From: Treponema sp. CETP13
GTDB taxonomy: Bacteria > Spirochaetota > Spirochaetia > Treponematales > Treponemataceae
Length of the DNA stretch: 64,000 nt
Direction: 5' to 3'
NCBI GenBank assembly: GCA_001885315.1
Contig: MLPZ01000010.1
Span: 1-64,000, forward strand
Both the position numbers and the translations under genes were made by a program. How positions within the stretch are numbered: the stretch's first letter is position 1; each line of letters begins with the position of its first letter. Below the pieces are notes generated by a model. That model searched no databases. It was not told where the DNA came from and was given only the letters and a program-made list of their open reading frames with translations. Positions 16,587 to 28,260 of the stretch are shown one piece after another.

Positions 16587-16632
16587 AATGAGCTTTTTTG
16601 ACCCTATCGGTCAATTAGGCTCATTTTTTTTT
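16587..16632 (+). terminator. Intrinsic terminator, copy 1 of a repeated palindromic element
   Basis: Outer stem AATGAGC (16587-16593)/GCTCATT (16619-16625), inner palindrome TTGACC-CTATC-GGTCAA (16598-16614), then a run of eight or more T. It ends the small exported gene pair. The inner palindrome recurs at 17512-17528 and 27515-27531. Confidence 0.85.
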
Positions 16633-16808: not shown

Positions 16809-16825
16809 TTGGCACACTTTTTGTA
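16809..16825 (+). promoter_or_regulatory. Candidate sigma-54 (-24/-12) promoter of hsp20 copy A
   Basis: TTGGCAC followed by TTGTA, giving GG-N10-GT with GG at 16811-16812 and GT at 16823-16824. The second hsp20 copy has the same arrangement with a perfect GG-N10-GC. A start about 12 bases downstream (near 16836) coincides with the left edge of the highly conserved leader, which supports the call. Confidence 0.6.
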
Positions 16826-16830
16826 ATAGT

Positions 16831-16889
16831 ATTAGTGTAAGCCGTTAAGAGCGGCTGGGTAGTTTACCCAATGAACGAAAGTTCTAAAA
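16831..16889 (+). promoter_or_regulatory. Three-hairpin 5' leader of hsp20 copy A
   Basis: Three consecutive hairpins: AGCCG/CGGCT (16840-16856), GGGTA-GTT-TACCC (16857-16869) and GAAC-GAAA-GTTC with a GNRA tetraloop (16873-16884). The 59-base block differs from that of copy B at a single base, while the coding regions have diverged far more. It is probably a structured 5' UTR for stability or heat/stress control. The GGAGG site lies outside the hairpins. Confidence 0.65.
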
Positions 16890-16919: not shown

Positions 16920-17405
16920 ATGAACACAGTATCTTTATTTAATCCTTTATTTAACACAGATTTTTTCGATGCATTTGATAATTGTCTTGCTGGCAATTGT
17001 GAATCCAAAACTACTTTTTCACCAAAAGTAGATGTCCGTGAAAACGAACACGCATATCTTTTTGACATGGAGCTTCCTGGAATGAGCAAAGAAAATGTTG
17101 ATATCAGTCTAAAAGATAAGATTCTGACTATTAACTCTCATAAAGATGAAAAACTTGAAAGTGCTGATACTAACAAAAAAGAAACAACAAAAGAAGTTGC
17201 CAAAAATGATGAGAAAACACGTGAGGCTGGTGAACGATGGTTGATACGAGAACGGAATTCGGTTGAATTTACTCGCAGTTTCCATTTACCAAAGGATATT
17301 GACGGAGAAAATATCTCTGCCTCCTTTGAAAACGGATTATTGCATATAAGTATTCCACGACTTCCTGAAACACAACCAAAAACCATTAAGATTACAGCTG
17401 CTTAG
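16920..17405 (+). CDS. Hsp20/alpha-crystallin small heat shock protein, copy A
   Basis: An ATP-independent holdase that binds unfolding proteins and passes them to the Hsp70/ClpB system. 161 residues. The alpha-crystallin domain spans about 35-155 (PKVDVRENEHAYLFDMELPG, then SFHLPKDIDGENISASFENGLLHISIP). A charged insertion of about 30 residues (KLESADTNKKETTKEVAKND region) lies in the middle. The start has GGAGG six bases upstream. It is near-duplicate to the gene at 27775, with which it shares promoter, leader and terminator type. Confidence 0.95.
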   Translation: MNTVSLFNPLFNTDFFDAFDNCLAGNCESKTTFSPKVDVRENEHAYLFDMELPGMSKENVDISLKDKILTINSHKDEKLESADTNKKETTKEVAKNDEKTREAGERWLIRERNSVEFTRSFHLPKDIDGENISASFENGLLHISIPRLPETQPKTIKITAA

Positions 17406-18151: not shown

Positions 18152-19189
18152 TTATTCTTTCTTTGTTTCTTTCTCAAACTTTAACAGGAACTTATCGTAA
18201 TCAGATATGAATGTTTTATCTTGAACAATGCGGTATTTTTCAAATTCTGTTTCCGCATAAAGCTTTGCCTGCTCGGCACTCACTTTTCCGGCTCCAATCA
18301 GCAATTCATTACCATTAAATTCCAAGAAACCATCAAGACGCTTTGCCCAGTCCTCCATACTCATTGGAATTTGACGCTCTGCCTGTAACTCTGCATAATC
18401 GAGATACAGTGAAACAATTCTCTCCAAATAAGACATCTCTTTATCATTTAAATAATTCTTTGCAATAGAAACATCTGTTTTGACTATTTTACCTTCTGGT
18501 GCCGCATCCCAGGTGGTCAGTCCCATATGCTCTTTGCCTGCATCTGCACGCTCGACAATTAATTCTGCTGCTGTGTGTCGGTGAACAGCCCAATGCATTT
18601 TGTTTTGAACCGTTTGAAAAAACTGTCTAGTAGTCTTTGCATTCTTGTCGTAATCAAAGGCGGTAGCATAAAGGTCTGTGATTTTCTGATAAAATTTGCG
18701 CTCTGATAGACGAATTTCGCGAATACTTTGCAACTGGCGCTCAAAGTATTCATCTGTAAACATATGCCCTTTTTTAAGGCGCTCTTTATCCATCGTCCAG
18801 CCTTGGATTGTATAATCCTTGACTATTTGACCTGCCCATTTACGAAAGCGTACCGCACGATCATTATTGACCTTAAAGCCAACAGCAATAATCATCTGAA
18901 GATTATAATGCTTTGTACTGTATGATTTACCATCTGAGGCAGTTATAAAGTATTTCTTTATAACTGCTTGCTCCACTAATTCACCATCATCAAATATTTT
19001 TTTAATATGTTGCCCTACGTTTTGAACAGATACATCATATAATGCAGCCATCATCTTTTGTGTTAACCAAATATTCTCATCTTCATAACGCATTTCTACA
19101 CTATCAGTGTTATCACCAACAGCAGCGACATACGTGAGATATTCGGCAGCAGAGCTATGTATGGTTATTTCATTTTTAATTTTTTTCAT
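18152..19189 (-). CDS. RhuM-family (virulence RhuM) protein, copy 2
   Basis: The start at 19189 is preferred over 19195 because AGAGG is then 6 bases upstream. The approximately 345-residue protein has the RhuM pattern: an N-terminal winged-helix-like segment (IWLTQKMMAALYDVSVQNVGQHIKKIF), YSTKHYNLQMIIAVGFKVNNDRAVRFRKWA, and a C-terminal half with MGLTTWDAAPEGKIVKTDVSIAKNYL. RhuM proteins are often encoded in or beside type I restriction loci and pathogenicity islands; their biochemical role is not established. A second RhuM sits between hsdM and hsdS. Base composition looks higher in G+C than its neighbours, suggesting acquisition. Confidence 0.88.
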   Translation of the reverse strand: MKKIKNEITIHSSAAEYLTYVAAVGDNTDSVEMRYEDENIWLTQKMMAALYDVSVQNVGQHIKKIFDDGELVEQAVIKKYFITASDGKSYSTKHYNLQMIIAVGFKVNNDRAVRFRKWAGQIVKDYTIQGWTMDKERLKKGHMFTDEYFERQLQSIREIRLSERKFYQKITDLYATAFDYDKNAKTTRQFFQTVQNKMHWAVHRHTAAELIVERADAGKEHMGLTTWDAAPEGKIVKTDVSIAKNYLNDKEMSYLERIVSLYLDYAELQAERQIPMSMEDWAKRLDGFLEFNGNELLIGAGKVSAEQAKLYAETEFEKYRIVQDKTFISDYDKFLLKFEKETKKE

Positions 19190-19206
19190 CGTCATCCTCT
19201 GCCGTA

Positions 19207-22200
19207 TTAAACCTCTCCACCGACACCTTTAAATTTGTCTACAAAGGCTGCAATTTTGTGAAAAACGCTTTGTTTTTTTGTTAAATATTTAGGATTGAGT
19301 GGGCTCATTTTAGGAAGTATTTCATTTAATTCTGTGCCATTTTCACTTGCATATTCTCTTTTTAATGAAGCAAGAATGTATCGTTTTGCAGCTTCTTCAT
19401 TAAGTTCTTCTTCTGTAATTAGTTGTTGTGCTTCTTTTTTTTGCTCTTTTTGTGCAAATGAGAAAAAGGCATCAATAATAGTTGCTTTATCTTGAATTTC
19501 ATCTAAATCAGTTTGGTTAATAAAATCTACAACCAAACTTTCTTTTGCTCTATTTCCGGTGCTAGATCTAATTATACGCCGTACTTCGTCTAGTAAAGCG
19601 TCTTTATCATTTACGTTTTTGTTTTTTTCAAAAATCAGCTCCAAAATATAATCCAAGTTTATTTCTTGCGATTTTAATAAATCTACTTCGAAAACAACGT
19701 CATCCCAATCTATTGTAGAGTCATCTTTATCTTTTTCAGCTTTTTCTTTGCGTAGCCAATCACGAATATCATTGTATGTTGAGCGATAATCTTGAATAAC
19801 TCTTTCTTCTGGTATGGTAATGCCTTGCATAGTTTTAATGTCTTGGTCACTAACATAATGCGTTGTTTTAAATTCTTGCAAGGCCTCAGTATCGTCTATA
19901 TTAATTGACTGTAAATCTTTTAATGTAGTAAATTCATCATAATTTTGCAGCACATTTTCTATCCGCAAATATTCACCAAACAGCTTAGCAAATTCTTTTT
20001 TATCTTTTTGGGTAACAATAGCTTGCGCATCTGGAAAGCGTGCATGTAATTCGGTAACAACTTCTACATATCCACGACGAGCTTCTCCGGTAGCAATATC
20101 GGTAAACCCTTCCATGTATTCTCTGTAACTTTTTTCGAGCACTACGTTTTTAGTATTTTTATCACCAAACAGTGTAATGGCATCTATTGTTGCTTGTTCC
20201 AGATTTCTAAAAGTTACAATATTGCCAAAGGTTTTGGTTGTATCATAAATACGGTTAGTGCGTGAAAAAGCTTGCATTAAACCATGATACCGCAGATTTT
20301 TATCGACAAATAGGGTATTGAGTGTAGGAGCGTCAAATCCTGTTAAAAACATGCCTACTACAATTAAAAGATCCACTTCTTGATTTTTTACCCGATTAGC
20401 AAGGTCTCTATAATAATTTTGAAACTCTTTACTATCTACCCCAAAATTGGTTTTAAACATTTTATTATAATTAGAAATAGCAAATGTTAAAAACTCTTTT
20501 GCACTACTATCCATAGCAGAAGTCTCAAAAGATTCATCAGAAATTTCTCCAATTGCACTTTGCTCTTCGTTAGCAGCAAAAGAAAAGATTGTTGCTATTT
20601 TTAAGGGTTTTTCGCTCTCTTTTTGCAAGTTGTTTAAAGATTCATAATACAACTTTGCTGCATCAATATTGCTTACCGCAAACATTGCATTAAAACCTTT
20701 TGCTCCAATATGTGCACGGTGCGTTTTTAATCTAAAATTATTTAGAATGTACTCAGATACTTCTTTTATTCTTTCAGGGTGCAATAACGCTTCTTTTGTT
20801 TCTGCTGCAGATAATTTTTTTTCGTCTTGTTCTAACTCTATAGCTTTGAACTTAGGGCGAACATCGTTATAGTCGACTTTAAACTTTAAAACTTTTTCAT
20901 CTCGAATAGCATCCGTAATAACATAAGAATGCAACTCTCTACCAAAAACACTCGCTGTAGTTTCTGCCCCGAGTGCATTTTCTGGAAAAATTGGGGTTCC
21001 AGTAAAACCAAATTGATAATACTGTTTAAACTTCTTTTTAATGTTTTTTTGCGCTTCACCAAACTGTGAGCGATGAGCCTCGTCAAAAATGAACACAACT
21101 TGTTTATTATAAACAGGTAAAGCAGTTTCTGCTTTTATAAGGTTGTTTAATTTTTGAATGGTAGTAACTATAATTTTGTTATCATCTTTTTGAATATTTC
21201 GTTTAAGCCCAGCTGTATTTTCTGATCCATTAACACTATCTGGAGAAAAACGCTGATACTCTTTCATTGTTTGATAATCTAAATCTTTTCTATCTACTAC
21301 AAAAAATACTTTATCTATAAAATCAAGCTGTGTGGCAAGGCGAGCTACCTTAAAACTGGTCAGTGTTTTTCCAGAACCTGTTGTATGCCAAATATACCCA
21401 CCACTTTCGGTCGTTCGCCATTTTTTAGCGTTGTACGCACTTTTTATTTTCCATAAAATTCTTTCTGTTGCTGCTATTTGGTACGGTCGCATAATAAGTA
21501 AATTATCGCTCGTATCAAACACCGAATACTGAAAAAGAATATTTAGTATTGTGTTTTTTTGAAAAAAAGTAGCGGTAAAATCTTTTAGATCTTTGATAAG
21601 AGAATTATCAGATTTTGCCCAGTTCATGGTAAAATCGAAACTATTTTTATCTCTTTTTGTGGTATTAGCAAAATAGCGGCTATCGGTGCCATTCGAAATA
21701 ACGCAAATTTGTAAATATTTGTATAGAGAGTTTTCAGAATTAAAACTTTCTTTGCTGTATCGATTTACCTGATTAAAGGCTTCTCTAATTGCAATTCCAC
21801 GTTTTTTTAGCTCTATCTGAATGAGTGGCAATCCATTTACCAAAATAGTTACATCATATCGATTAGCTTGAGTGCCGGTTTGCTCAAACTGTGAAATTAC
21901 TTGCATTGAGTTTTTTGTTATATCTTGTTTATTTACCAGATAAATATTTTGTATGTGCCCATCATCAAACACAAAATCATAAATGTAATCGTTGTGAATT
22001 TTGCGCGTTTTATCTATATGATTATCGCTTGGCTTATCTAAATACTCCTCACAAAACCGTTTCCATTCAGCATCACTAAAGGCTACCGTATTAAGCCTTT
22101 GCAACTGCTCTCGCACATTTTTTAGCATGAGTGTGGGCGTTGTTAATTTTGGCACATACTCATACCCTTGATTGACTAAGTCTTGTATAAATTCGCGCTC

Positions 22201-22314
22201 TAGAGAAGCCTCGGTCTGATACACAGCAGCTGTCTCATGCAAAACGGAGTATTTTGTATATTTATCTAGGACAATAAAATTGTTTGTTTCTGCAATGGTA
22301 GAATATTCATACAT
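19207..22314 (-). CDS. hsdR: Type I restriction enzyme, motor/nuclease subunit HsdR
   Basis: HsdR translocates DNA and cuts it when HsdS finds an unmethylated site. The start at 22314 ([13 protein letters not shown]) has GGAAGGAA upstream and directly follows the prrC stop; a longer frame begins at 22332. Motifs: nuclease core around residue 165 ([19 protein letters not shown]), Walker [11 protein letters not shown] at about 311, DEAH at about 408, FGFTGTPIF, and motif [15 protein letters not shown]. At about 1,035 residues it is full length and looks intact. It is encoded after hsdM-rhuM-hsdS-prrC. Confidence 0.96.
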
Positions 22315-22316
22315 TC

Positions 22317-23477
22317 TTACACTTCCTTCCAAAAACTATAAGTATTTATTAAGTGTTCCAGTAATAGCTTTACTGTTTGTTTTTCTTGCGGAGTTGGTTC
22401 CGCTACACCTTCATTTGCTATAGTTGAATGACTTGTAAAATTTGTTATTCGTTTATAATATGCATCTTTATCACCTGGTAACAAGTCGCCCCAATCTTTG
22501 TATCCTAAAAAACTGGCAGTTTTCTCATATAAATTTCTCAAATATGTAAAGTGCTGTCTTTTTACTTGATTACTCGCCACTGCTGTCTCTAGTTCAGTTT
22601 TTAAATACAAATGATAAGAGAGGCACCTATTTGAATCACCTTTTACCTCTTCTAATTCAAATGTGTTATCTTCTAGTCGATTTAGTATATATCCACTGTT
22701 TTGCCTTGTTTCGTTATACATAACATTATAAAAATTAATATTGTGGGTTGTAATGACAAATTTGATCTTGTTAAGATTAAAGTCACTAGACTTAATTAAC
22801 TTTGCCAAGTTCACCGCAAGTTCTATCAAATGGTTTTCATCTAAAGAAGTTACAGGGTCATCTATAAACACATATTCCAAATTATTAAATTGATCTGTTT
22901 CTCTATCGCTTTCTTCCGATACATTTAACACATTAATTACTTGCTCGAGCAAGGCATAGAAAACACTCCAAACAAAACAACTTTCTTCACCTTTAGAAAT
23001 CTTAATATTGTCTGTATTTGTATCATGTCCACGCCCATATGAAAAGGACACTTCTGTATAAGCATTTATTGTTGTTTCTTTATCATCACTTTCTTTGATC
23101 GTATACTTGGCATTAAAATTGGGACTTAATTTTTCATCAGTGTAGTGTTGAAAAAATCTAATCACATTATTATCTTGCCCCTGCTCTTCAAATACCCATT
23201 TCGTGAAAACATTGGGATGTATTTTTAGTATTGGTTTGGCATCTTCTTTCAAATCATTGTCCCAATAGAACAAATCTTCTGTAAAAGCATTATAGTAAAG
23301 TATTTTCTTGCTTAATAAACCTATTTCTTCAGATTCTTCATCAACTTTCGGTGAGACTAAGTTTTTGAATTCTCTTGAAAGCCTTGTTTTACCAGTACCG
23401 TTAAAAGCATAAATTAATTGAACCTTTTTGCTATTATCATTTAGTTTCTTTGCAATTTCGTTTAAACTTTCCCCCAT
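22317..23477 (-). CDS. prrC: Anticodon nuclease PrrC (tRNA-Lys-cleaving suicide toxin)
   Basis: PrrC is an ABC-ATPase-type RNase held silent by a type IC restriction complex. It is released when phage disables that complex, and then cuts tRNA-Lys in the anticodon loop. The 386-residue product has a Walker A ([11 protein letters not shown], about 24-34), an [18 protein letters not shown] block, an ABC signature (ISKGEES) and a Walker B ([15 protein letters not shown]). The C-terminal nuclease domain has Arg314, Glu318 and His350, the same R-x3-E and R-x35-H spacing as Arg320/Glu324/His356 of E. coli PrrC. It lies between hsdS and hsdR, as in the E. coli prr locus. Compared with my memory of E. 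coli PrrC, about 16 residues are missing just before Walker A. Confidence 0.93.
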
Positions 23478-23479
23478 AT

Positions 23480-24745
23480 TTATACCTCAACATCAAGCTT
23501 TTCAAAAGTTAAAAGCTTGTCTCTGTAGTATTCATATTGCTTTTGTCTCTCATCAATTTCAGAAGGTAACCCCTTCGAAATATCATTGCAAAGAGTATCG
23601 AAACGATCAAGAATATCGACAATACGTTGTTGTTCTAGGAGGGACTTATCTGTATCGTTCGGATACGGAATGGGTATTTCTAAACTACGAACAAACGATA
23701 AATTAGCCATAGCAAGTTTACCCTTTCCCAAATCTAAAAACTTAGAATATAACATTGTACACGCATAGTAAATATAAGATGGTAAAACCTTCTTATCATC
23801 TAATGGGTATACACCCGCAATATTTTGATTTATTGTTGCTTCAAAAGGTAAAAATGCAACCTTTCCAATTGTAGCTCCAACCAGTGCTATTAAAGTAGAG
23901 TCTTTCTGCATTAGCCTGGCAGATGACTTTTTCAACCCTAATTCTGTAATATAATTAGTTATTTCATCTACTGTTTTTTGATTTTTACATACTGTAGAAC
24001 CTAACCATTTTATTGTACCATTCTGCCAATAGTCAATTTCATTTTTAGATGGTGTACCTCCAGCTTGAACACTGCATATTTCACCCAATTGCTTTAATTC
24101 AAACTCACCTTCAAATGTCAGTAAACTTTTTTTATAATATTCATACTGTTTTTTTCTATCTGTAAGCTCCGCTGTAAGCTCCGCTGTAAGCTCCGTGAAA
24201 TTGTCCAAAATACGAACAATTTCACTCTGAACAGGTAGTGGTGGGAGGGGTATTTGAATTTTTGCCATCTTTTCTTTCGAAACATTAAATCTAGTAACAC
24301 CATTTGCTGTCTTTCCAATTTGACGCCTTAGACTATGAGAACGAAACAAGTGTTTCAGAAAATCAGGTTCTACGCCACTAATATCATAAAAACGAAAGAA
24401 AAAACAAAAACTATTAAGGTATAGTGCTTTTTCTGGGATTTTAGTTACTACAGCTGAAAATCCACATTCATTTGGCGTTTCAGATGAACCTGTAAACACA
24501 ACATCTCCATACTCAAGTGTTCTTTGATTTTCATCCTCACCAATTTTTACAGTATCCTCTGGATCTATATCTAAAGCAGGGTTAGAATATACATTTTTAT
24601 AAGTAATAAACGCTGCATTTCCATCTGTAAAATCATCTTTAGATTTACCAGTCAAACCGCCATAAAACTTACCTAATTCTCCTAACACTATATACTCAAC
24701 CCCATTAGGGCAAAGCTCGTCAATCAAATCATCTAATTTACTCAT
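23480..24745 (-). CDS. hsdS: Type I restriction specificity subunit HsdS (type IC-like)
   Basis: HsdS reads a bipartite target through two recognition domains. The 421-residue protein has TRD1 (about 1-170), a central conserved helix region (PLPPLPVQSEIVRILDNF, then QYEYYKKSLLTF), TRD2 (about 215-370) and a second conserved helix (QQRIVDILDRFDTL, then QYEYYRDKLLTF). The central spacer contains TEL-TAEL-TAEL, the repeat that sets spacer length in the EcoR124/EcoDXXI type IC enzymes. Both halves look intact. It overlaps the upstream rhuM by 8 bases and precedes prrC by 2. The target sequence cannot be read from this. Confidence 0.95.
   Translation of the reverse strand: MSKLDDLIDELCPNGVEYIVLGELGKFYGGLTGKSKDDFTDGNAAFITYKNVYSNPALDIDPEDTVKIGEDENQRTLEYGDVVFTGSSETPNECGFSAVVTKIPEKALYLNSFCFFFRFYDISGVEPDFLKHLFRSHSLRRQIGKTANGVTRFNVSKEKMAKIQIPLPPLPVQSEIVRILDNFTELTAELTAELTDRKKQYEYYKKSLLTFEGEFELKQLGEICSVQAGGTPSKNEIDYWQNGTIKWLGSTVCKNQKTVDEITNYITELGLKKSSARLMQKDSTLIALVGATIGKVAFLPFEATINQNIAGVYPLDDKKVLPSYIYYACTMLYSKFLDLGKGKLAMANLSFVRSLEIPIPYPNDTDKSLLEQQRIVDILDRFDTLCNDISKGLPSEIDERQKQYEYYRDKLLTFEKLDVEV
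24161..24196 (-). repeat. Three 12-bp tandem repeats in hsdS (TAEL spacer)
   Basis: Units at 24161-24172, 24173-24184 and 24185-24196 read TGTAAGCTCCGC, TGTAAGCTCCGC and TGTAAGCTCCGT on the plus strand. On the coding strand they give T-E-L/T-A-E-L/T-A-E-L. In-frame gain or loss of a unit would change the distance between the two half-sites recognised. Confidence 0.9.
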
Positions 24746-25763
24746 TCTTTCCCCCTCCTTTTTCCAGCAGTTTTTTTACTTGCTTATCAAAGTCAGAATT
24801 AATTTTTTGGGTTTTATTAAACTCATCATATTCTGCTCTAGCTTTTTCATCTGCCTGCTTTTTACTTATACGACCTTTGCCTTCAAGAATATCGTACTTT
24901 CTAAATGCCAGAAATTCATTAATACTAGCGGCAAACTCTTCCATTGTAAAAGTATTTTCACGTTCAATCAAATCTTCAATATAATCAAAATATCCTGTCA
25001 CAGCTCTTTCTAGTTGACGGATTTGCTTTTCTTCTAAATAATTTTTACCAACTGTAACATCACTTTTTAAGATTCTACCTTCAGGCGCATTTTTCCAAGT
25101 GGTAAGACCCATGTTTTCTTTTGATTTATCTGCCGATGTATCAATAATTTCAGCCGCAGTTTTACCTGTAATTGCGTAATGGAATTTATTTTGCACCATG
25201 GCATAAAAGTCATGAGTTACTTCTGCATTTTTATCATAGTCAATACTACATTCTTGAAATATATCTGTGATTTGTAGCCATATTCTTCGCTCACTTGCTC
25301 GAATAGAACGTACGCGCTCTAACAGTTCTTTGAAATAATCTTTACCAAAAGCAGTTTTACCTTGCTTTAAGCGTTCATCGTCCATTGCAAAGCCTTTTGT
25401 CATATATTCTTTTAAAATCCCTGTTGCCCATATTCTAAAATTGGTAGCCTTTCGTGAATTAACACGATATCCAACAGAGATAATTGCATCAAGGTTATAA
25501 AATTTCGTTGATTTAGTTTGAGTTTTTCCTTCAATTGCACCATGTTCAGTGGTTGTTTCCAAAATGGAAACAACCACTTCTTCTACTAATTCGCCTTCTT
25601 CAAAGATGTTTTTTAAATGCTTTGAAATAGCTGGAACACCCACATCAAAAAGCTCAGCCATTGCTTTTTGTGTAAGCCAAATAGTCTCATCTTTTACTAC
25701 TGCATTAATCGATATATTTTCTTCGGGTGTATTATAAATTAAAAAGTTTAATTCCTTATCCAT
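24738..25763 (-). CDS. RhuM-family (virulence RhuM) protein, copy 1
   Basis: A 341-residue protein with the same plan as the gene at 18152. N-terminal helix-turn-helix-like IWLTQKAMAELFDVGVPAISKHLKNIF, then KFYNLDAIISVGYRVNSRKATNFRIWA, a central coiled-coil-rich region, and MGLTTWKNAPEGRILKSDVTVGKNYL. It is inserted between hsdM and hsdS with a 2-base gap and an 8-base overlap, so it is translated with the restriction-modification subunits. A role in regulation or DNA contact within the restriction complex is conceivable but unproven. The two RhuM copies are diverged, not a recent duplication. Confidence 0.9.
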   Translation of the reverse strand: MDKELNFLIYNTPEENISINAVVKDETIWLTQKAMAELFDVGVPAISKHLKNIFEEGELVEEVVVSILETTTEHGAIEGKTQTKSTKFYNLDAIISVGYRVNSRKATNFRIWATGILKEYMTKGFAMDDERLKQGKTAFGKDYFKELLERVRSIRASERRIWLQITDIFQECSIDYDKNAEVTHDFYAMVQNKFHYAITGKTAAEIIDTSADKSKENMGLTTWKNAPEGRILKSDVTVGKNYLEEKQIRQLERAVTGYFDYIEDLIERENTFTMEEFAASINEFLAFRKYDILEGKGRISKKQADEKARAEYDEFNKTQKINSDFDKQVKKLLEKGGGKNE

Positions 25764-25765
25764 AT

Positions 25766-27313
25766 TTATCCCTCAATTTCTGCAACAATTTCATCTATTT
25801 CAGCACGAAGTCTATCTATATTTGATACTGTAGTTTTAATCTTAGCATTCAGCACATTAATATCAATAACTTCTCTTGTGTCTTTCGCCTCAACATAAGA
25901 GCTTACAGAAAGGTTGTAATTTTCTTCAGCAATTGTATCGTTATCTACCGATTTGCAAATATAGTCTGTATCTTCCTTTTTATCAAAAAGGTTTATAATT
26001 GCTTCGATATGTTCTGATGTTAAAATATTATTATTAGTTTCTTTTTTATAAAAGTCCTCTCCGCTTGCGTCTATAAATTGCGTTTTTGTAGTCGTTTTAT
26101 GTTTTGAAAGTACTAAAATATTTACTGCAATAGAAGTGCCATAAAAAAGATTTGGCGCAAGTGAAATAACTGTTTCGACAAAGTTATTATCGACTAAATA
26201 TTTTCTTATTTTTTGCTCTGCTCCTCCCCTATAAAATATACCAGGGAAACATACAATAGCTGCACGTCCTTTACTAGAAAGATAACTAAGAGAATGAAGC
26301 ACAAACGCAAAATCGGCCTTAGATTTTGGTGCAAGCACACCAGCAGGAGCAAAACGCACATCGTTAATAAGGGTGGGATCATCACTCCCAATCCAATGTA
26401 TTGAATACGGAGGGTTAGATACAATCGCATCAAAAGGCTTTTCGTCGCCAAAACGAGGGTCTAAAAGAGTATTACCCAGTGCAATATTAAAGTTGTTATA
26501 GTTTACATTGTGCAAAAACATATTCATGCGAGCAAGGTTATAGGTCGTATGATTAATTTCCTGCCCATAAAAACCATCTTCAATAATATGCGCATCAAAT
26601 TGTTTTTTTGCTTGTAATAGCAGAGAACCAGAACCGGCTGCAGGATCGTAAATTTTATTGATGGTTGATTGCTTGTGTATTGCTAAGCGTGCTATAAGTT
26701 TTGAAACACTTTGCGGTGTGAAAAACTCTCCCCCAGACTTTCCTGCATTAGCGGCATAATTTGAGATTAAAAACTCATACGCATCACCAAAAAGATCAAT
26801 ATGATTATCTTCAAACTCACCAAAATCAAGCCCTTCAACTCCTTTAATTACAGCAGCTAAATGACTATTTTTATCCTTTACAGTATTTCCTAATCTATTG
26901 CTTGTCGTGTCAAAATCAGCAAATAATCCCTTAATATCTAATTCTGATGGGTATCCGTTTGCAGAACTTTCAATAGCAGAAAATATAGCCGCTAAATCCG
27001 TATTCAAGCTTTCGTTTGTATTTGCATTTTTTGCAATATTAGAAAACAACTGGCTTGGATAAATAAAATACCCTTTTGTTTTGATTGCATCATCTTTAAT
27101 TTCTTTTGTAATAATGCTATCATCTAATCCTGCGTAGTTAACGCTATCGTCTTCACCTTCCATATACAGAGAAAAGTTTTCACTTATAAAGCGATAAAAA
27201 AGTGTTCCTAACACATATTGTTTAAAATCCCATCCATCGACAGAGCCACGGACATCATTTGCTATTTTCCAAATTTGCGATTGCAATTCTGCTCTTTGTG
27301 CTGCACTAGACAA
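25766..27313 (-). CDS. hsdM: Type I restriction DNA N6-adenine methyltransferase HsdM
   Basis: HsdM methylates adenine in the HsdS target and is needed for cleavage. The start is a TTG at 27313 with AGGAG six bases upstream. The 515-residue protein has the N-terminal HsdM helical domain ([33 protein letters not shown]), motif [12 protein letters not shown] at about 219, and the catalytic NPPYS at about 299. The C-terminal part is helical and ends ...[17 protein letters not shown]. It is the first gene of the operon and appears complete. Confidence 0.97.
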
Positions 27314-27664: not shown

Positions 27665-27682
27665 TTGGCAAGCTATTTGCTA
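27665..27682 (+). promoter_or_regulatory. Candidate sigma-54 (-24/-12) promoter of hsp20 copy B
   Basis: TTGGCAA followed by TTGC, giving a perfect GG-N10-GC (GG 27667-27668, GC 27679-27680). The distance to the conserved leader is the same as in copy A, 7 bases from the -12 element to the start of the block. Confidence 0.65.
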
Positions 27683-27686
27683 TAAT

Positions 27687-27745
27687 ATTAGTGTAAGCCG
27701 TTAAGAGCGGCTGGGTAGTTTACCCAAAGAACGAAAGTTCTAAAA
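27687..27745 (+). promoter_or_regulatory. Three-hairpin 5' leader of hsp20 copy B
   Basis: The same three hairpins as copy A: 27696-27712, 27713-27725 and 27729-27740. The last is extended by an A-T pair (AGAAC-GAAA-GTTCT). There is one base difference from copy A over 59 bases. Confidence 0.65.
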
Positions 27746-27774
27746 ATTATTACGTATTTTTTTGGAGGTTCAAT

Positions 27775-28260
27775 ATGAACACAGTATCTTTTTTTAACCC
27801 TTTATTTAACAGTGATTTTTTTGATGCTTTTGACAGTTCTGTATCTGGAGATCGTTCTACCGGTTCATCGTATGCACCAAAGGTTGATGTCCGCGAAAAT
27901 GAAAAAGCGTATATTTTTGATATGGAACTTCCTGGAATGACAAAAGAGAATGTTGACATTAGCCTTAAAGACAAAGTGTTAACAATTAATTCTCACAAAG
28001 AAGAAAAACTTGAAAGCGCTGATAGTGACAAAAAAGAAAAAGGCAAAGAAGTTGCCAAAAATGATGAACAAACAAGAGAAGCTGGCGAGCGTTGGTTGAT
28101 TCGAGAACGCACTTCAAGTGAGTTTACCCGAAGTTTCCACTTGCCAAAAGATGTTGACGGTGAAAACATTTCTGCAACCTTTAAGAATGGTATGTTATCC
28201 ATTACTGTTCCAAGAAAACCAGAAACACAACCAAAAACCATTAAAATTTCTGCTGCTTAG
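27775..28260 (+). CDS. Hsp20/alpha-crystallin small heat shock protein, copy B
   Basis: 161 residues, same length as copy A and roughly three-quarters identical by eye. Most change is in residues 20-35 and in the charged mid-domain insertion. The alpha-crystallin core is present (PKVDVRENEKAYIFDMELPG, SFHLPKDVDGENISATFKNGMLSITVP). GGAGG is about six bases before the ATG. It sits on the far side of the restriction-modification island from copy A, in the same orientation. The two may form mixed oligomers or serve different stress conditions. Confidence 0.95.
   Translation: MNTVSFFNPLFNSDFFDAFDSSVSGDRSTGSSYAPKVDVRENEKAYIFDMELPGMTKENVDISLKDKVLTINSHKEEKLESADSDKKEKGKEVAKNDEQTREAGERWLIRERTSSEFTRSFHLPKDVDGENISATFKNGMLSITVPRKPETQPKTIKISAA

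Follow-up and report, generated by a model that had tools for sequence, protein, structure and literature searches.

A conserved sigma-54 promoter and a 5′-terminal hairpin with a probable role in mRNA protection at hsp20 genes of Treponemataceae

INTRODUCTION

Stem-loops at the 5′ end that stabilize bacterial messages are known from ompA, papA, recA, and vacA (PMC7509114, PMC3997798). RppH of Bacillus subtilis requires at least two unpaired 5′ nucleotides (PMC3997798), and the hbs message of the same species is protected by a ribosome against RNase J1, according to a study referenced in that paper. For spirochetes, the RNases listed for Borrelia comprise RNase Y, RNase III, and others, with no RppH or RNase J named, and a riboswitch of Treponema denticola is described as the sole one characterized to date in Spirochaetes (PMC10319736).

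Leaders of small heat-shock genes are structured in other bacteria. IbpA represses its own translation via a multi-stem 5′ UTR, which is established for gamma-proteobacteria (PMC10474464), and in proteobacteria small heat-shock genes are controlled by thermometers of the ROSE type, which comprise two to four stem-loops (PMC3669281, PMC10474464). As for their transcription, genome-wide mapping gave only a background sigma-54 signal at E. coli ibpB, the promoter of which was called misannotated (PMC4591121). According to a large computational survey of sigma-54 regulons, a heat-shock cluster that includes COG0071 is enriched in Planctomycetota and Bacteroidota, the same cluster not being reported for Spirochaetia in the accessible part of that survey (PMC12316311). 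The hsp20 gene of T. denticola (TDE1029) responds to other oral species, alongside grpE, dnaK, and clpB, with no promoter described for it in the accessible part of the report (PMC3914990). We found no description of sigma-54 control of a spirochete hsp20 in the open-access literature, to which our search was confined.

Here, we describe two hsp20 genes of Treponema sp. CETP13 and compare their upstream regions with those of other spirochetes. The genes lie in a stretch of 64,000 nt (contig MLPZ01000010.1, positions 1 to 64,000, assembly GCA_001885315.1), hereafter the window. An earlier note on this DNA had drawn attention to their promoters and to a leader of three hairpins.

RESULTS

Two hsp20 genes share a promoter and a nearly identical leader

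The source genome is a 2.54-Mb draft in 21 contigs; its relatives are Treponema and other Treponemataceae, and its genus is represented by this single genome in the comparison set. Both hsp20 copies lie on the (+) strand, with the predicted +1 placed at the -12 element plus 12:

16810-16825, (+) strand: sigma-54 -24/-12 promoter of copy A, TGGCACACTTTTTGTA (GG at 16811-16812, GT at 16823-16824)
16836, (+) strand: predicted transcription start of copy A (± ~2 nt, from the spacing to the -12 element; hairpin starts of the family cluster there)
16840-16856, (+) strand: 5′ hairpin 1 of copy A, AGCCGTT-AAG-AGCGGCT, the family-wide element
16857-16869, (+) strand: hairpin 2 of copy A, GGGTA-GTT-TACCC, specific to this genome
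16873-16884, (+) strand: hairpin 3 of copy A, GAAC-GAAA-GTTC with a GNRA tetraloop, specific to this genome
16909-16913, (+) strand: Shine-Dalgarno GGAGG of copy A, predicted not to be sequestered
16920-17405, (+) strand: hsp20 copy A, small heat-shock protein (161 aa, PF00011)
27666-27681, (+) strand: sigma-54 -24/-12 promoter of copy B, TGGCAAGCTATTTGCT, overlapping TGCTATAAT, an extended -10-like string
27692, (+) strand: predicted transcription start of copy B (± ~2 nt, from spacing)
27696-27712, (+) strand: 5′ hairpin 1 of copy B
27713-27725, (+) strand: hairpin 2 of copy B
27729-27740, (+) strand: hairpin 3 of copy B
27764-27768, (+) strand: Shine-Dalgarno GGAGG of copy B
27775-28260, (+) strand: hsp20 copy B, small heat-shock protein (161 aa, PF00011)

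The PF00011 scores of the two proteins are 80.8 and 84.5 bits (cut-off 20.8), and 125 of their 161 residues (78%) are identical. The genes show a dN of 0.137 and a dS of 1.27 (NG86), the synonymous sites being near saturation, with differences at 17 of the 43 fourfold sites common to both. The leaders (16833-16889 and 27689-27745), on the other hand, agree at 56 of 57 bases, as expected from the earlier description of a near-invariant leader before diverged proteins, and the core AGCCGTTAAGAGCGGCTGGGTAG occurs exactly at 16840 and 27696, which is not expected by chance. The conserved block begins a few bases before the predicted +1 at 16836, close to where it had been placed before, and each leader folds into three tandem hairpins, with the GAAA tetraloop closing the last at both copies, again in agreement with the note. 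The two copies are likewise well conserved over the first ~36 nt of their coding sequence and in the terminator stem. Since the likeness of two copies in one genome could stem from local gene conversion, the case for selection rests on comparison with other genomes.

A type I restriction locus (HsdR, HsdS, and HsdM; 18152-27313) sits between the two copies. Within it, 22317-23477 encodes a PrrC-like anticodon nuclease, and two RhuM/PDC-S05 proteins are encoded at 18152-19195 and 24738-25763. Three similar palindromes, TTGAC[C/T]-N5-[A/G]GTCAA, were found at 16598, 17512, and 27515; at least two of them lie inside longer terminator-like stems and two are upstream of hsp20 genes. They may represent a dispersed terminator-like repeat or a protein site.

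The sigma-54 promoter is conserved at hsp20 across the class

Upstream regions of hsp20 genes were gathered by protein search across the phylum (an alignment query of the genome collection returned hsp20 loci, a single-protein query none) and scored for TGGCAC-N5-TTGCA, with a threshold of ≥17.5 out of 21 that 4.3% of Markov-resampled upstream regions reach by chance. A near-consensus TTGGCAC-N5-TTGC[AT] site was found upstream of 121 of 124 hsp20 genes of Treponemataceae, in 19 genera (101 of 104 upstream regions at ≥17.5, then 20 of 20 further ones); among the named loci of the genome collection, a set overlapping the 104 regions, the promoter was present at 77 of 78. It also preceded all 13 hsp20 genes from other families of the order and all 15 from the remainder of the class. 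Other classes of the phylum had it in 5 of 14 cases, a count that leaves out one locus (L192) with an above-threshold site within coding sequence and in which one region is incomplete; absence of the site there is not strong evidence because weaker hits in those classes may be paralogs. The compared genomes are related, so that none of these counts represents independent events.

The element is rare, the exact string TTGGCAC-N5-TTGCW occurring only two to five times per genome in six genomes of the family, and hsp20 bears one of these copies in four of the six. The sites at hsp20 display GG-N10-G[C/T] with the TGGCAC-N5-TTGCA-like consensus of an RpoN promoter, and it is the sigma-54 element that is kept in other genera, whereas TATAAT is not. 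Gapped word counts and inspection by eye revealed no conserved motif for an upstream activator site at the hsp20 promoters; the word counts yielded TTGACA-like strings upstream of hsp20 in part of the genomes only, at no fixed position. The conservation of the promoter is well supported, and we judge that hsp20 is almost certainly transcribed from a sigma-54 promoter in Treponemataceae and many other spirochetes. The note's assignment of a -24/-12 element to both genes is borne out by this conservation across the class and by the presence of rpoN and activator genes (see below).

A search of the whole source genome for CIRCE (TTAGCACTC-N9-GAGTGCTAA) at ≤3 mismatches returned none, and none was seen in leaders read directly. 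A CIRCE operator at hsp20 was therefore rejected, as the note had done, and groEL/dnaK control in this genome would be either not of the usual HrcA type or strongly diverged. In a family of another class (f33), a perfect CIRCE stands before hsp20 and there is no sigma-54 site (L182); hsp20 control thus appears to have switched within the phylum.

RpoN, its activators, and other sigma-54 genes

The source genome encodes rpoN and four clear sigma-54 activators (a PspF-like protein beside pspA, an NtrC-type response regulator, a protein of the GAF-domain type, and a fourth that lacks a DNA-binding domain). It contains 111 sites with ≤1 mismatch to the sigma-54 pattern, compared with 10 for the reversed pattern. 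All 30 spirochetes tested have rpoN, including those without the hsp20 site, and its co-occurrence with the site is therefore uninformative.

In the Borrelia RpoN-RpoS cascade, a sigma-54 promoter precedes the gene of a sigma-70-family factor. A gene for such a factor in the source genome (C19:53632-54486, L198/L252; 285 aa), which is RpoD/RpoS-like and scores below the NCBIfam cut-offs, is preceded by a sigma-54 promoter close to consensus in 29 of the 30 Treponemataceae genomes compared (orthologs L253-L281; the remaining one was unparsable). Another gene for a sigma-70-family factor of the source genome (L207, 271 aa) has a sigma-54 site with one mismatch. On the same contig as the first factor gene, pspA (L228) has the sigma-54 site TTGGCATACTATTTGCA and is divergent from the PspF-like activator gene, the product of which scores 435.7 bits against TIGR02974, just under the cut-off of 443.55; judged by sequence, the pair is a phage-shock module in this spirochete. 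The activator encoded at C13:32826-33320 (L229) has an N-terminus resembling a receiver domain and lacks a DNA-binding domain at its C-terminus, which makes it a candidate for activating promoters without an upstream site.

Hairpin 1 keeps its pairing across the family while its sequence varies

The note had presented the three-hairpin leader as a conserved unit, and this claim has to be narrowed. A BLAST search of the leader against 195 genomes of the family found no sequence similar to hairpins 2 and 3; it returned the promoter part (query 1-37), upstream of hsp20 in other genera, and not the hairpins. Some other genomes have a second hairpin of their own, unrelated to these. Only the first hairpin is general, being usual in Treponemataceae and its order.

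Predicted stem starts are enriched several-fold at +1 to +6 relative to the rest of the leader and to upstream DNA outside the promoter, and 39 of 80 predicted hairpins start exactly at the predicted +1. The hairpins comprise 4 to 8 bp with an A-rich loop, at or a few bases from +1 (e.g., TGTAAGATAAAAAATCTTACC, TGCCAGGGAAAAACTGGCA, TGTCGGTTATAAACCGACA, and TGAGCCTTGAGGCTC). A makes up 62% of their loops, compared with 38% of the leaders, and the most frequent loop is GAAA. Approximately one-third of the leaders show no simple hairpin by the strict scan, which misses bulged stems; some of these have a stem that is bulged or nested. In the window, the first stem starts 4 nt inside the predicted +1, an offset that, as reported by Emory and colleagues in 1992, lies at the limit of protection in E. 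coli.

Because neither sequence nor loop length is fixed in the hairpin, we employed a mate-shuffle test, in which the first 9 nt of one leader are joined to the rest of another, rather than a covariance model. Among 102 family leaders, the strongest simple stem with a start between +1 and +8 averaged −4.29 kcal/mol, compared with −0.91 kcal/mol (sd 0.16; 100 rounds) for mate-shuffled leaders. With a single leader from each of 18 genera, the values were −4.7 and −1.34 kcal/mol, respectively (sd of the latter 0.50; best of 200 rounds, −2.8). The pairs at positions +5 to +8 include each of the four Watson-Crick types, and most of these recur in several genera. Arms that change while their complementarity is kept very probably reflect, in our judgment, selection on RNA pairing and not on DNA sequence. 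Selection at the RNA level, which the note had proposed from the two copies, is well supported for the 5′ hairpin by such compensatory changes in many genera.

The sigma-70-family factor gene served as a same-promoter control. A stem at −4 kcal/mol or better was predicted for 56% of the hsp20 leaders and for 4 of 29 control leaders (mean −1.56). Since the hairpin is much weaker at this second sigma-54 gene of the same genomes, it is a feature of hsp20; a general property of sigma-54 transcripts was rejected, the control leaders mostly having no 5′ hairpin. In a family of another class (f24), two hsp20 leaders (L184 and L185) have a long-range 5′ closing stem around an inner hairpin, behind a sigma-54 site.

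5′ pairing accompanies long leaders

Among 132 leaders, from the family to the phylum, 5′ pairing was predicted for 104 of 113 leaders of ≥42 nt and for 5 of 19 below that length (Fisher p = 2e-9, with no correction for relatedness). Long leaders are paired in 92% of cases, compared with 58% in shuffles; as shuffled long leaders also pair more, part of the difference reflects length alone. Bare short leaders were found in several families of the class (f7, f9, and f11) and in some members of Treponemataceae.

DISCUSSION

Protection of the 5′ end as the preferred reading

The reading that we prefer, with a probability of roughly 0.6 for the account as a whole, start site and stabilizing function included, is that hsp20 is driven by sigma-54 and that a 5′-terminal stem-loop protects its mRNA. 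RNA polymerase with sigma-54 would transcribe hsp20 from a strong -24/-12 promoter, so that synthesis would depend on an activator that uses ATP and on a stress signal. The hairpin at or near +1, maintained by compensatory change, would serve as a cap that shields long leaders from 5′-end-dependent decay (pyrophosphohydrolase and RNase entry), and the capped burst of chaperone mRNA would stay translatable during stress. With a short leader, a ribosome at the Shine-Dalgarno sequence would cover the 5′ end and no hairpin would be needed. A 5′-end stabilizer is the most likely role of hairpin 1, in which structure is conserved and sequence is free, as in known stabilizers. Several observations weigh against the account: the first stem in the window starts 4 nt inside the predicted +1, approximately one-third of the leaders show no simple hairpin by the strict scan, the search upstream of hsp20 gave no conserved activator motif, and the RNases listed for Borrelia include neither RppH nor RNase J (PMC10319736).

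We propose more tentatively, giving it somewhat less than an even chance, a wider picture in which sigma-54 control of hsp20 is standard in this class of spirochetes and possibly ancestral in the phylum. The gene would belong to a small sigma-54 stress regulon with the sigma-70-family factor (and pspA in this genome), and its mRNA would carry a length-compensated 5′ cap, the terminal hairpin having been acquired where the leader outgrew ribosome cover and short leaders being bare.

Other explanations of the leader

The leader might instead be a docking site for a protein, e.g., Hsp20 itself, a reading that finds a precedent in the self-regulation by IbpA (PMC10474464) and a further point in its favor in the leaders of the two copies, which are far more conserved than their synonymous sites. 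It is rather unlikely, however, since loop and stem sequences are not conserved across the family, only pairing and an A-rich loop, and the hairpin is far from the Shine-Dalgarno sequence. The GGA core of CsrA sites is not enriched in the loops (9 of 80, compared with 20% of windows), and CsrA binding was rejected on this ground. A little less likely again is that the hairpin acts in transcription, such as in promoter escape, or is an inverted repeat in the DNA to which a repressor binds. Its position from +1 to ~+25 is where operators such as CIRCE sit, but a DNA-binding protein would conserve sequence, and here sequence shifts and complementarity stays; the lack of CIRCE at ≤3 mismatches in the source genome and the same-promoter control genes, mostly without the hairpin, also argue against this reading.

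Another reading is that the two leaders are alike only by recent gene conversion, with copy B using an extended -10 promoter of the sigma-70 type. The first codons are alike too in both copies, and TGCTATAAT directly follows the -12 element of copy B, but other genera retain the sigma-54 element and not TATAAT, and the hairpin evidence is independent of the two copies, which leaves this reading very improbable. At least as improbable is an RNA thermometer melting at high temperature, for which the ROSE-type leaders of proteobacteria would be the model. The predicted accessibility of the Shine-Dalgarno sequence is nearly flat at 0.42, 0.44, and 0.46 at 30, 37, and 42°C, respectively (74 leaders), and is not below that of shuffled leaders (0.40). 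With no predicted shift of the Shine-Dalgarno sequence from paired at low to free at high temperature and no match to an Rfam family, ROSE and fourU thermometers were rejected, in line with the view in the note that the Shine-Dalgarno sequence is not sequestered and that this is no classical thermometer.

Significance and comparison with known systems

Heat-shock control in spirochetes is little known. A sigma-54 promoter at hsp20 in nearly every genome examined of the family, order, and class provides a strong, testable rule for chaperone induction, which comes as the E. coli precedent is being questioned. The hairpin, which covaries across the family and is found mainly with leaders longer than ~42 nt, offers a natural test of whether a ribosome or a hairpin guards the 5′ end of a bacterial message.

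E. coli ibpB resembles the present genes in encoding a small heat-shock protein behind a -24/-12 element. The note had cited it as a precedent, which is a weak one given the background signal and the verdict of misannotation (PMC4591121); the spirochete element, by contrast, is conserved over a whole class. CIRCE/HrcA likewise involves an inverted repeat near the +1 of a heat-shock gene, whereas the sequence of hairpin 1 is not conserved and the source genome yielded no CIRCE. The ROSE-type thermometers of proteobacterial hsp20/ibpA share a structured, multi-stem 5′ leader of a small heat-shock gene; the spirochete leader differs in having no Shine-Dalgarno sequestration, no Rfam match, and a minimal predicted response to temperature. 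Treponemataceae resemble Borrelia with its RpoN-RpoS cascade in having a sigma-54 promoter before the gene of a sigma-70-family factor, although the Treponema factor is judged by NCBIfam scores alone, which fall below the cut-offs. Closest to hairpin 1 are the stem-loops of ompA and papA (E. coli), recA (Acinetobacter baumannii), and vacA (Helicobacter pylori), which are also at or next to the 5′ end, away from the Shine-Dalgarno sequence, and independent of sequence. Unlike those stabilizers, the hsp20 hairpin, known here from sequence alone, is tied to one gene across a family and its order rather than in one species, and it is coupled to a sigma-54 promoter.
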